Of a stretch of DNA of 64,000 nt, positions 26,574-64,000 are shown one piece after another. A model generated the notes under the pieces. That model saw only the letters and a program-made list of their open reading frames with translations. It was not told where the DNA came from and did not search any database. Location: contig CAJFVJ010000003.1 of assembly GCA_904420445.1 (NCBI GenBank), forward strand, positions 615,998 through 679,997, read 5' to 3'. A program made the translations under genes and the position numbers. Source of the stretch: Candidatus Adamsella avium. GTDB lineage: Bacteria; Cyanobacteriota; Vampirovibrionia; Gastranaerophilales; CAJFVJ01. The stretch's first letter is position 1; the number at the start of each line of letters is the position of its first letter.

Positions 26574-28853
26574 TTATTTTAAAAAGAATGTATTTTCACT
26601 CAACATAAAAAGTTTGATTTTGATTTGTCTGAAAATCCATCTTATTATTCTTTTCGTTTTTCTCTTTGCTCTGAAAATATACGGTAACCCCTTAGGCATT
26701 TGCTTTGTTTCAATCAAAATATTTAATAATCTTGATTCAACAGATTGTTTAAATTTATTTTTTCTCAAAGCTAATGCATCACACAACCAGTTCAAAGATT
26801 TTGATGCTTCTTTATTAAGAATATTATTAACTACGTTGTAGTCAACTTCTGTATTTATAGCAGCAAATATATCTTCAAGACTTGATATATTTGAAAAAAG
26901 TCTATCTGACATTCTTAACATTGAGAATAAAGAACGAAACCTACTATTGCCTCGAGAATTACAAAAAGAAATAAACTGTTTTTCAAAGATAATAGAAAAA
27001 CAAGTGCCATGATATGAATCAGTTACTACAAATCTTGCATTTTTTATTGTATATAACCAATCTTCAACAGACTCATTTTTATTCATTTTTATTACACTAC
27101 AGCTATATTTTTCAGCTAACTTGGCTACAGTTTCTTCAATATTTTTATTATTATCTAGAACATATAGTGCAATATAATTTTTCTTTTCTAATTCTGAATT
27201 ATTTATTAATTGCTCATATTGAGTCTTATCAAGCAAAAACACAGGATCCAAAATACATTCTGCATCTGTATCAAATTCCTTTTTGCAAACATCAACACTT
27301 TCAAGTTCCCTTACTGACACAGCATCAAATTGTTTCATATAATACTCTATAGCTGTTTTTACATCATCTGATTGTTCAAATTTCTCAAAAATCATACTTG
27401 CAGAACAAGCTATTTTCTTTTTATCATTTTTTACAAAATCCAAAAAATATAAATACTGAAGATAATAATTATATGACCAAACTTGATCAGAACCCACAAT
27501 AAAAGTATCAAAAGTGTCATTTAAGTTTGATAAATCTTTTTTATTTTGACATAACTCTGTGAGACTAAAATATTTATGAACAAAATCAATTTTACCTTTA
27601 CAACAAGGAAACTCATATCTATTTGTCCATTGCTTAGCTCTGTAGTTAATAACTTTTATTGTATAGCCTAAATTTTTCAACAACTCTTGAAGAGCATAAC
27701 ATGTAAGAATTGCGCCATAGTTCCAAGTTGCCCAATAATTCATAATACCGCAGTCATATCTGTCAAACAGATACATATTAACTAGCTGTTTTAACGAATA
27801 TTTATCTAAATTTTCAAAAAATGCTTTTCTTTTTGGATGAACTCGATGAGGAGCATAAAGATTTCGATTACCTAATATTGCATATTTCAGAGGAACTTCC
27901 TTTATTACCTTAAAATTATTTTTTATATCATTCCATAAATCTCTTGATTTACAATTATTAACAAGAACTAAGGATGTTCCCTTCCCATCATTCAAACTCT
28001 TATCAAAATTCTCTATCCCCCAAAAATCGGCAATAGTAAAATCTCCCACTCTTTGAGTTGAACAGAATTTGCAACCGGTACAATTTTCTCTTAATGAAAT
28101 ATTATTCAAAAACAACTGCATATAACTGTCATCAACCTGAACAAAGCTATAAGTAGTAGTAGTAGTAGTAGTAGTATTTGTAAGAGTTGGTGACCATCCT
28201 CTTACTTTATCTCTGAAATTTACACAAACAACTTTTTCATCATCATAATGCAATAATTCTTTCAAATATTTTTTGTAAACCTTCGGAGAAGGAACCCCAT
28301 GGCATAAAATATCCACGGTCAACAGTTTTTCATAATCTTTATTCAAAAAAGAATACAATCCAGCTACCTGACATGGGGTACCTGAAAATAAAACAAAATT
28401 ATCAGCATCCAATAAATTTCTTATTTCTTTATATACAACCCCTATATCGCTTTGAACATACTTTGAGCCTCTAAGTTTGCTTAAATCACTTTTTGAATTA
28501 ATAATAATATGCCTAGCCCTTAATTCATCCGTATCAAAAGTACAACCGCAAATATATCCGTTTTGGCTTAAAATATAATTTGCAAGAATACTAAAAGCAC
28601 CACCTGAAGAACTGACTTTTCTTGTTTCATCATCTGCCATAGCTGCATAGCAGTCTGGTTTTTTGAAGTTATCATTTGTTTTATTAAGAATAGGACAAAC
28701 TTTTTTGCATAACCCGCAATCAACACATTTTTCTTCATCTATGAACGGATATAAAAATCCTTCACTATTTTCTTTCATAGAAATAGCATTTTTAGGACAT
28801 ATATTATAACATGCAGAACAACCGCAACATTCAGAATGATTAAGAATAAACAT
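26574..28853 (-). CDS. Ferredoxin-FrhB-polysaccharide pyruvyl transferase fusion
   Basis: 759 residues, three parts. Residues 1-60 hold two 4Fe-4S motifs (CCGCSACYNICPKNAI and CVDCGLCKKVCP). Residues about 70-350 are the F420 hydrogenase/dehydrogenase beta-subunit (FrhB) domain with SSSGGAFS and FSGTPCQVAGL, plus GCKFC/STQRVGDF. From about 365, CGIMNYWATWNYGAILTCYAL starts a polysaccharide pyruvyl transferase (WcaK/CsaB) domain, with VGSDQVW and SYHGTCFSI. It runs opposite to its neighbours. The protein probably adds or reduces a group on glycan; the electron-transfer partner is unknown. The AGT microsatellite (28152-28175) encodes an in-frame Thr8 run at about residues 227-234. Confidence 0.82.
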   Translation of the reverse strand: MFILNHSECCGCSACYNICPKNAISMKENSEGFLYPFIDEEKCVDCGLCKKVCPILNKTNDNFKKPDCYAAMADDETRKVSSSGGAFSILANYILSQNGYICGCTFDTDELRARHIIINSKSDLSKLRGSKYVQSDIGVVYKEIRNLLDADNFVLFSGTPCQVAGLYSFLNKDYEKLLTVDILCHGVPSPKVYKKYLKELLHYDDEKVVCVNFRDKVRGWSPTLTNTTTTTTTTYSFVQVDDSYMQLFLNNISLRENCTGCKFCSTQRVGDFTIADFWGIENFDKSLNDGKGTSLVLVNNCKSRDLWNDIKNNFKVIKEVPLKYAILGNRNLYAPHRVHPKRKAFFENLDKYSLKQLVNMYLFDRYDCGIMNYWATWNYGAILTCYALQELLKNLGYTIKVINYRAKQWTNRYEFPCCKGKIDFVHKYFSLTELCQNKKDLSNLNDTFDTFIVGSDQVWSYNYYLQYLYFLDFVKNDKKKIACSASMIFEKFEQSDDVKTAIEYYMKQFDAVSVRELESVDVCKKEFDTDAECILDPVFLLDKTQYEQLINNSELEKKNYIALYVLDNNKNIEETVAKLAEKYSCSVIKMNKNESVEDWLYTIKNARFVVTDSYHGTCFSIIFEKQFISFCNSRGNSRFRSLFSMLRMSDRLFSNISSLEDIFAAINTEVDYNVVNNILNKEASKSLNWLCDALALRKNKFKQSVESRLLNILIETKQMPKGLPYIFRAKRKTKRIIRWIFRQIKIKLFMLSENTFFLK
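28152..28175. repeat. (AGT)8 trinucleotide tract in coding frame
   Basis: Eight perfect AGT units on the plus strand, read as ACT on the minus strand, giving a run of eight Thr inside the FrhB domain. Slippage would change length by whole codons. Confidence 0.95.
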
Positions 28854-61164: not shown

Positions 61165-61199
61165 AAAAAACCGTCATTTCATTTCTTTGACGGTTTTTA
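61165..61199 (-). terminator. Rho-independent terminator of the zinc-ribbon gene
   Basis: AAAAACCGTCA stem with TGACGGTTTTT and an 11-nt loop; on the minus strand followed by six T. Ends the gene stopping at 61204. Confidence 0.9.
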
Positions 61200-61203
61200 A
61201 AAT

Positions 61204-62295
61204 TTATTCAGCTTGTTTTTTTTCTTTTTTGGCTCTTGTTTTCTTTGGTTTTTCCTCTGAAACAGCAGCTTCAGGGGTTTCTTCCGTTTTAATTTCTTCT
61301 GCTGGAGTTTCTTTTTGCAAATCAACTTTGGCTTCTTCTGATGCAGCTTGAGCCTGATTTTTGAATTCCTCTGGAGCATCTTCCCTGTCAGGATTCCATC
61401 TCGGAAGGTTCAACTGTTTTCTAACAAGCCCTATACCAACGTGAACACGCCATTCATCCATCTTCAATTGAGCTGCAATAATCTTGTGACAGCCTATCGG
61501 AGGCAGCGGCAACAACGGTTTGTAAAGATTTTGTATTGCCATAAGCTGCTCTGGAGAAACTGCAAGTTTTCTCTTCGGATAAGGAAGTTTTGGAAGATTC
61601 AGTTTTTGTCTTACCAGATTAATTCCAAAGAAAGTCTTTTGCGGTTCAAGCCCGATTTCAGCACCGATAACCTCATGTGCATCATAGTTTGGAAGAGGAA
61701 GCATTCTCTTATATAAAACTTCTATTTGAGCTACCTGTTCTTTGCTTATCAGCAAGCTTTTTTTCTGTTTCGGAGATGGTCTGTTTCCATATGGTCTTCT
61801 AAATCCTCCGCCGTAGTTATTCGGTCTGCGATTTTGATATCCGCCTTCAGGTCTTCTGAACCCGCCTCCATAATTGTTATTCGGGCGTCTGTCCTGATAT
61901 CCCCCGCCGTAATTATTTGGTCTGCGGTCTTGATATCCGCCTTCAGGTCTTCTGAACCCGCCGCCATAGTTGTTGTTCGGGCGTCTGTCCTGATATCCCC
62001 CGCCGTAATTATTTGGTCTGCGATCTTGATACCCGCCGTAGTTGTTCGGACGTCTATCCTGATAATTGTTGTAACCTCTGTTTTGTCTTTCTTGATAAGG
62101 TGGTCTTTCTCCCATATCTCCTGATGGCATATCGCCCGTCGGTTGTTGATTTTGAGGAGAAACATCTCCTTCTTGAGGCATAACATCATTTAACAACGGT
62201 TTTCTATCCGGATAAAGACAATCCGGACAGATTACTCTTTTTGGATTTTTTGTTTCAAATTCTTTGCCGCATTTGGTACATTTATTTACATACAT
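61204..62295 (-). CDS. Zinc-ribbon protein with Arg/Asn/Tyr/Gly repeats and twin C-terminal domain
   Basis: 363 residues, four parts. Residues 1-30: zinc ribbon with Cys6, Cys9, Cys23, Cys26. Residues about 60-175: low-complexity repeats YQDRRPNNYGGG and GFRRPEGG, with a 32-residue (96-bp) unit repeated. Residues about 180-300: two homologous 55-residue segments (ISKEQVAQIEVLYKRMLPLP..., VSPEQLMAIQNLYKPLLPLP...) each ending LVRxxLNLP. C-terminus: Lys/Glu/Ala-rich tail. The repeat type resembles RGG/prion-like tracts of RNA-binding proteins that condense. Function unknown. AAGGGG lies about 14 nt before ATG. Confidence 0.82.
   Translation of the reverse strand: MYVNKCTKCGKEFETKNPKRVICPDCLYPDRKPLLNDVMPQEGDVSPQNQQPTGDMPSGDMGERPPYQERQNRGYNNYQDRRPNNYGGYQDRRPNNYGGGYQDRRPNNNYGGGFRRPEGGYQDRRPNNYGGGYQDRRPNNNYGGGFRRPEGGYQNRRPNNYGGGFRRPYGNRPSPKQKKSLLISKEQVAQIEVLYKRMLPLPNYDAHEVIGAEIGLEPQKTFFGINLVRQKLNLPKLPYPKRKLAVSPEQLMAIQNLYKPLLPLPPIGCHKIIAAQLKMDEWRVHVGIGLVRKQLNLPRWNPDREDAPEEFKNQAQAASEEAKVDLQKETPAEEIKTEETPEAAVSEEKPKKTRAKKEKKQAE
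61798..62085. repeat. In-gene tandem repeat, 96-bp unit
   Basis: Near-identical blocks at 61855 and 61951 (TCTGAACCCGCC...) are 96 bp apart. It encodes the YQDRRPNNYGGG tract. High identity at DNA level points to recent unit expansion. Confidence 0.85.
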
Positions 62296-62542: not shown

Positions 62543-62995
62543 CTATTTCTCACTGCTGTCTTTTGAGAGCATAAATGTAACAGGTCCGTCGTTGACAAGG
62601 CTTATTTCCATCATTGCCTGGAAGCATCCTGTTTCAACCCTCAAGCCTGATTTCTTAAGCTCTTCAACAAATTTTTCATAAAATAACTTTGCTTCAAGCG
62701 GATTCTTTGCATTATCAAAACTCGGACGATTCCCTTTTCTGCAGTTTGCTGCAAGAGTAAACTGAGAAACAACAAGTATCTCTCCTCCTATATCTTTCAG
62801 AGAGAAATTCATCTTATCCTGTTCATCCTCAAAAATTCGAAGATTTAATACCTTATTCGCCAAAAATTCTATCTCTGAGCCGTTATCATTTTTCTCAACT
62901 CCGAGAAATATCAATATTCCTTTTTTTATCTCAGAATAAACCTTTCCGTCTATACTAACAGATGCACTATTTACACGTTGAAGAAGAGCTTTCAT
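62543..62995 (-). CDS. dtd: D-aminoacyl-tRNA deacylase
   Basis: 150 residues from ATG 62995 (GGAG 7 nt before it). [30 protein letters not shown], the [18 protein letters not shown] block (SQ motif) and [11 protein letters not shown] (GP motif) are complete. Removes D-amino acids or glycine from mischarged tRNA. Overlaps the Maf-like gene end by about 29 bp. Confidence 0.96.
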
Positions 62996-64000
62996 CAAAT
63001 AACTCCTTTTGTTTTTTCAAAAAATCAATTCCCAACCCAAGCCACATTTTGCCTGAAGAAAAGAAGTCCTGCAAAATTTCAAGAAGCGCATCCATCTTCG
63101 ATTTATCAGTATAGTCATTTGGCTCCTTGAGAAATTCGTTCATCATATAATATTCTCTAATCAGCAAGGAAAAGAATACCTTATCTTTTGCGACATATTC
63201 TCTGATTATATCACCGTAGATGTCTGAAATTTTTTCTATTCTATCTCTTATCTCGCCTGTCAAAATTTTTGCTCTCTGATAAGAATTTTTCAGTTTCTTA
63301 AATTCTCCCTCTCCTTTATCAAACAAATTCAGGCATTTTTCAAAAGATGCAAGCAGTGAATTTACTGTTGTTTTGAATTTTGAAAACTCTTTTGGAGAAA
63401 CATAGTCTCTCAAAGATGAATCTATCACTTTTTCTACATCAATTTTCTCAACTGCGTATTTTTCGAGAAAATCTTTCATCGGAATATTTTCAAATCCGTT
63501 TATCTGTGCTCCCCCGCTTCTGGTATTAAACAGCTTTGTACAGGGAGCAATCTCAAGAGCTATGTTCTCAAAATGCTCTACAAACATTGCATAAGCAGGT
63601 GACGTCAGAAGTTTTTCACCATTTTGCCCTATGACAAAACAAAGATTTTTTGAATTTTCTTCGAGTGTTTCTTGTATTTTTTTCATGCTGTCATTTTTAT
63701 CTTTGAGTTTTGCAGCACCAAAATATTTATCATAATCATCAACAAACAGCTCGAATTTCCCTGCCGAAACTTCTCTGTATTTAATATTATACGCACTGTT
63801 TGAAGCATAACACTGACCGTTTCTATATGCCAAATCCTGACCTGTGAGAATAATCGGATTACACCCGAGCAAATATGCACTCTCAAGAGCGCAAATTGAC
63901 ACAGTCCCTCTGCTTTTGTACTTATCAGCTTTTATGCCGCTCAGATTCTCAAGCCATTCCGTAGTAATCATATTATCAGGATAGTAGTTGAATACACGAT
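62967..64000 (-). CDS. Maf/DUF115-like motility accessory glycosyltransferase, 5' truncated
   Basis: The frame is open to the window edge at 64000, with codons upstream of the first ATG (63971) giving RVFNYYPDN, so the gene continues beyond. [28 protein letters not shown] is the conserved DUF115 block of Maf flagellin glycosyltransferases (6-hydroxymethylpterin pyrophosphokinase MptE-like fold). Later C-terminal regions are helical. If Maf, it would glycosylate flagellin or another surface protein. Confidence 0.8.

Follow-up and report, generated by a model that had tools for sequence, protein, structure and literature searches.

The window, a 64,000-nucleotide stretch of DNA, comes from the genome of a Gastranaerophilales bacterium of the class Vampirovibrionia, the GTDB name of the former Melainabacteria; NCBI places the order under Melainabacteria. 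Gastranaerophilales are non-photosynthetic gut relatives of cyanobacteria. Our analysis concerns one protein-coding gene of this window, called X here, with the following features in and around it.

62543 to 62998, minus strand: dtd (D-aminoacyl-tRNA deacylase), the upstream neighbor of X on the same strand, as in many relatives
61204 to 62295, minus strand: gene X, 363 amino acids from an ATG start, one copy in its own genome
62206 to 62295, minus strand: Cys4 zinc ribbon, residues 1-30 (MYVNKCxKCGxEFETKNPKRVICPxCLYP; pLDDT >90)
61765 to 62049, minus strand: Arg/Asn/Tyr/Gly-rich low-complexity tract, residues 83-177, net charge +12
61803 to 62037, minus strand: 96-bp tandem repeat, 2.4 copies of a 32-amino-acid unit, YQDRRPNNYGGGYQDRRPNNNYGGGFRRPEGG
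61567 to 61755, minus strand: first predicted homeodomain-like three-helix domain with a basic linker, PKRK, residues 181-243
61366 to 61566, minus strand: second predicted homeodomain-like three-helix domain, residues 244-310, with invariant EWRxHV and WN
61207 to 61365, minus strand: Glu/Lys-rich tail, residues 311-363
61166 to 61198, minus strand: hairpin followed by a U-run just 3′ of the X stop codon (-11.9 kcal/mol, z = -2.8), a probable intrinsic terminator

We compared the gene with that of a congener (G001; same genus, ∼93% DNA identity to the window around X) and observed 20 synonymous and no non-synonymous changes in the twin-domain region, which shows that the 61204-62295 frame is coding, that the gene is real and that its twin domain is under purifying selection. 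Two other open frames overlap the repeat tract, one of 132 amino acids (61726-62124, plus strand) and one of 146 (61749-62189, minus strand); both are probably by-products of the repeats. A promoter scan gave no excess above shuffled sequences. A leader RNA was considered and rejected, the Rfam matches in the window being two tRNAs only. Elsewhere in the window, an (AGT)8 run occupies 28152-28176.

Occurrence of protein X and its zinc ribbon

In a sample of the class, the twin domain was found in 115 of 194 genomes and the ribbon also in 115 of 194; because the same genomes carry both among the matches listed, ribbon and twin domain travel together. The two lie in one frame in 79 of 80 loci from GTDB contigs, the remaining locus being cut by a contig end. 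Each of 30 high-quality genomes (out of 40 relatives sampled) has one copy, and the 194 class genomes hold no paralogue or ribbon-only version save one weak 17-residue match. In a sample of the phylum (292 genomes), all 131 matches fell within the window's own order and none in the rest of that sample. Near-identical domains occur in loci named Candidatus Gastranaerophilales, the closest being L021. Sequence searches of Pfam, NCBIfam, PHROGs and the PDB returned no family that covers the window's protein, and no paper on it was among those listed by literature searches. A phage origin was also considered and set aside, a scan of viral_contigs with the twin-domain profile having given no relative. 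Protein X is conserved, lineage-specific and single-copy, is retained by almost all Gastranaerophilales, and is undescribed in the sources searched.

An earlier note on this DNA had recognized a Cys4 ribbon in X, and we find it as described, with the spacing C6-x2-C9-x13-C23-x2-C26. Zn_ribbon_8, HypA and RpoP were tried as a named family for the ribbon and rejected, their weak matches being generic Cys4 matches. In a genome of family f4, a second Cys4 ribbon protein (CADCGCEFDF...RCASCR, then a GGGG stretch) is encoded convergent to X (L156:6931-7236, plus strand).

Predicted fold of the twin domain

A domain of ∼60 residues is present twice in X, and its copies align at z = 12.6 over shuffles, which bears out the proposed duplication of a domain without a known family. 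AlphaFold2 modeled the pair as six helices forming two helix-turn-helix (HTH) units (mean pLDDT 82.7), with helices at 11-23, 32-40 and 44-57 and at 74-87, 95-103 and 107-120 in twin-domain numbering. In a Foldseek comparison of this model with the PDB, the top seven matches were all DNA-bound tandem homeodomains (DUX4 and tandem engrailed), and tandem homeodomains led again when the full-length model was used. Since the best E-values are weak (0.036-0.18, with a probability of up to 0.94) and the whole-chain TM-score is ∼0.3, the result suggests only how a single domain folds and that two of them stand in tandem, and is no proof of homology. Likewise, the window's domain scored 13.3 bits with the Pfam Homeodomain model (PF00046), under the gathering cut-off of 22.9; one relative (L124) rose above that cut-off with 25.5 bits, and the others were weak and below it.

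Trp48-Phe49 is a core signature of homeodomains (PMC4901127). These two residues are absent from the twin domain of X, where the first copy has Gly-Ile and the second Gly/Ala-Ile at the aligned positions, and the position of Asn51, a base contact in homeodomains, is taken by Leu in copy 1 and by Leu or Ile in copy 2. The equivalents of Arg53, a phosphate contact, are invariant, one per domain copy (R229 and R292). Because Trp48-Phe49 and Asn51 are replaced and Arg53 is kept, we regard the twin domain as homeodomain-like rather than as a homeodomain, and predict a tandem homeodomain-like HTH. Its near-invariant residues include twelve basic versus four acidic ones, and R229, K231, R283, H285 and R292 lie in the third helices. 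The earlier note had offered remote homology and structure prediction as a check, with a known structure of a different role as the outcome that would speak against it. The first half of that outcome is what the models suggest, a fold resembling a known one, the homeodomain; the usual role of that fold is DNA binding.

Trihelical HTH-like domains may also act as protein-binding modules. The twin domain of X could be such a contact module, for example for RNA polymerase or a ribosomal protein, with no nucleic-acid binding of its own; DNA contact alone may not account for all of its invariant Trp, Pro and aromatic residues (LPLP, EWRxHV, WN). However, the surplus of invariant basic residues, the basic tails and the nearest structures, which are DNA complexes, make this the least probable of the readings we weighed.

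The low-complexity tract and the C-terminal tail

In the AlphaFold2 model of full-length X, the ribbon (residues 1-30) and the twin domain come out as ordered, and disorder is predicted for residues 36-176 (pLDDT <50). The Arg/Asn/Tyr/Gly tract with its 96-bp unit, reported before from the letters of the DNA, was recovered by Tandem Repeats Finder at 61803-62037 (period 96, 2.4 copies, 92% matches, score 407). Gly, Asn, Arg, Tyr, Pro and Gln together make up 88% of the tract, compared with a mean of 25.5% and a maximum of 47% in 2,657 equal stretches from the other open reading frames of the window.

Across 106 distinct relatives (27-57% GC), the tract varies from 74 to 240 residues in length and its sequence is highly divergent. 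These relatives are not independent of each other, so p-values calculated over them should be read with caution. Arg accounts for 12.8% (CV 0.16) with a slight GC trend and Tyr+Phe for 10.1%, the aromatics having no GC trend; the content of Gly, Asn, Pro and Ser tracks GC, and the net charge is positive in all 106. The median number of RGG tripeptides in these tracts is 0; Arg, Tyr and Gly are enriched, though not in the form of RGG boxes. We observed tandem arrays in 58 of the 106 tracts, every period being divisible by three, and in the twin-domain DNA of 5 of 106; repeated reinvention of the tract across the relatives is supported. The near-identical repeats had been taken to imply a changing length. 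This is so for the window species and its congener, whose tracts differ in frame by 36 nt and 3 nt, but most other close species pairs have tracts of equal length, and fast length change is only weakly supported. From its composition and predicted disorder, the tract may serve as a condensate scaffold.

The tails of 58 of the 106 relatives carry an AT-hook-like motif (RGRK, RGRP or GRP), in a few of them as the canonical KKRGRPKK. The AT-hook core R-G-R-P with basic flanks is absent from the tail of the window copy (KKTRAKKEKK).

A tract that varies in sequence and length might be a flexible spacer between the ribbon and the HTH pair, with no condensate role, and X a transcription regulator of the ordinary, sequence-specific kind; tandem homeodomains recognize specific sequences, and the near-invariance of the third helices suggests that the target site is conserved. 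However, a mere spacer need not hold Arg and Tyr/Phe constant over 27-57% GC, nor positive charge in 106 of 106 relatives, and X has neither an effector domain nor a conserved adjacent target gene. We consider a plain regulator of this kind unlikely.

Gene neighborhood, candidate roles and known systems

The gene order in many Gastranaerophilales is rlmN, dtd, X, rimM and trmD. Among 94 loci, rimM is the next gene after X in 61, with a gap of mostly -1 to +5 nt, and trmD lies downstream in 62; X is preceded by dtd in 35 and by rlmN in 13. We found rimM beside X in genomes of family f2 and not in those of families f1, f4, f5 and f7 or of the other orders inspected, and the contigs of f3 and f6 end too soon to show this neighborhood. 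In the window's genome, a ylqD-like gene, rimM and trmD are grouped on contig C1, a different contig from that of X (L150:7024-8709, plus strand). A conserved operon was rejected as a guide to function, given that the rimM-trmD adjacency is not class-wide. In one genome of family f4, X has a gene for a YebC-like protein immediately upstream (L155:5192-5965, plus strand).

In the rimM operon of B. subtilis, ylqC and ylqD precede rimM-trmD (PMC10100781); the YlqC protein is the putative RNA chaperone KhpA (PMC12456014). KhpA was found above the cut-off in 49 of the 194 class genomes, all of families f8 and f13, where X was not found; in the f8 and f13 loci read (L145-L148) it directly follows rpsP. 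Families f10-f12 seem to be without both KhpA and X. The KH domain PF13083 gave no match in X and none in the window's genome at E 1e-4. RRM proteins (PF00076) are present in 86 of the 194 class genomes and in none of the window's order. Since X and RRM proteins occur together in some families and others have neither X nor KhpA, replacement of KhpA or RRM by X is not strict; the presence and absence of the three follow a few clades and do not count as independent events.

The neighborhood and the KhpA and RRM patterns therefore make an RNA role for X attractive. X could act in the maturation of ribosomes or tRNA as an RNA-binding protein, or more generally as an RNA chaperone. Its HTH pair and its ribbon would then bind to structured RNA, its tract would anneal RNA, and in Gastranaerophilales it would partly replace RRM proteins and KhpA. 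Its neighbors rimM, trmD, dtd and rlmN all act on rRNA or tRNA, and its slot before rimM-trmD resembles that of KhpA in B. subtilis. Set against this, the rimM adjacency is limited to f2 among the families inspected, the window's own rimM is on another contig, the replacement is loose, and the predicted fold is mainly DNA-binding; we hold an RNA-maturation role to be possible, if doubtful.

Over the RNA-maturation, regulator and protein-contact readings we favor, tentatively, a lineage-specific, self-associating nucleic-acid-binding scaffold of the nucleoid-associated or global transcription type, with DNA as its main ligand. The predicted DNA-type fold, the basic third helices, the RGRK/RGRP/GRP tails, the kept Arg/aromatic tract and the single copy support such a scaffold. 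Against it stand the weak fold match, the replaced Trp48, Phe49 and Asn51, the tail of the window copy, and the gene order in many relatives, which points to RNA or ribosome maturation and not to chromosome organization. DNA as the main ligand, condensation, a partner for the ribbon and the cellular role are what we infer: the DNA step rests on the fold and the basic residues, and the self-association step on the conserved sticker content, while the ribbon partner is a guess.

In the scaffold we propose, the tandem HTH pair would grip duplex DNA with both third helices and with the basic linker PKRK, and those basic tails that have an AT-hook-like motif would contact the minor groove as well. 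Through its Arg/Tyr "sticker" tract, each X molecule would associate with others and with nascent RNA, and these links could concentrate X locally in condensate-like clusters. For the zinc ribbon, we suppose that it might dock a partner that is conserved, perhaps RNA polymerase or a component of the ribosome. Of the RNA-granule or nucleoid protein suggested by the earlier note, nucleic-acid binding is supported by the predicted HTH, the basic third helices, the positive tract and 58 of 106 tails, but a DNA-type fold suits the nucleoid better than an RNA granule. Judged by sequence, a link of X to nucleoid or RNA organization is plausible. A bolder idea is that much of the class follows a eukaryote-like logic, in which a double-homeodomain-like module, a FET-like Arg/Tyr tract and a ribbon form a condensate as a link between nucleoid and RNA maturation and take the place of the RRM proteins and KhpA missing from Gastranaerophilales; this we regard as a long shot.

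X, a protein without a name, is highly conserved and occurs as a single copy throughout an order of animal gut bacteria that are mostly uncultured, as well as in some related orders; it could serve as a marker protein for part of the Vampirovibrionia. Should X assemble on DNA or RNA through its Arg and Tyr residues, bacteria would offer an instance of a sticker-tract and nucleic-acid-binding design best known from eukaryotes, and the more than 100 natural variants of X would be material for testing which tract features selection keeps.

FET-type proteins (FUS, EWS and TAF15) combine three elements, namely an Arg/Tyr sticker tract, a folded domain that binds nucleic acid, and a zinc module of the Cys4 type. 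X has a similar layout, with its sticker-rich tract, predicted to be disordered, beside such a predicted domain and a Cys4 ribbon, but has no RRM and no RanBP2-type zinc finger, and the resemblance is one of composition only. With the double homeodomains of DUX4 (PDB 5zfy, 6e8c and 7dw5) it shares, by prediction, two successive ∼60-residue three-helix HTH domains, a short linker and the Arg53 equivalents; unlike DUX4, it is bacterial, does not have Trp48-Phe49 or Asn51, and carries a ribbon and an Arg/Tyr tract, and the likeness is one of fold, not of shown ancestry. X resembles KhpA in lying a short way ahead of rimM-trmD in many Gastranaerophilales, a position not shared by other families, but is larger, with a different fold and no KH domain. 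Although its fold is unrelated to those of SSB and RNase E, its tract is Arg/Tyr-rich and it has no nuclease or OB domain, X is like these bacterial condensate-formers in joining a folded (in X, predicted) nucleic-acid-binding part to a disordered tract, and it is this tract, the glycine-rich linker of SSB and the tail of RNase E, that drives their assembly (PMC9312465).
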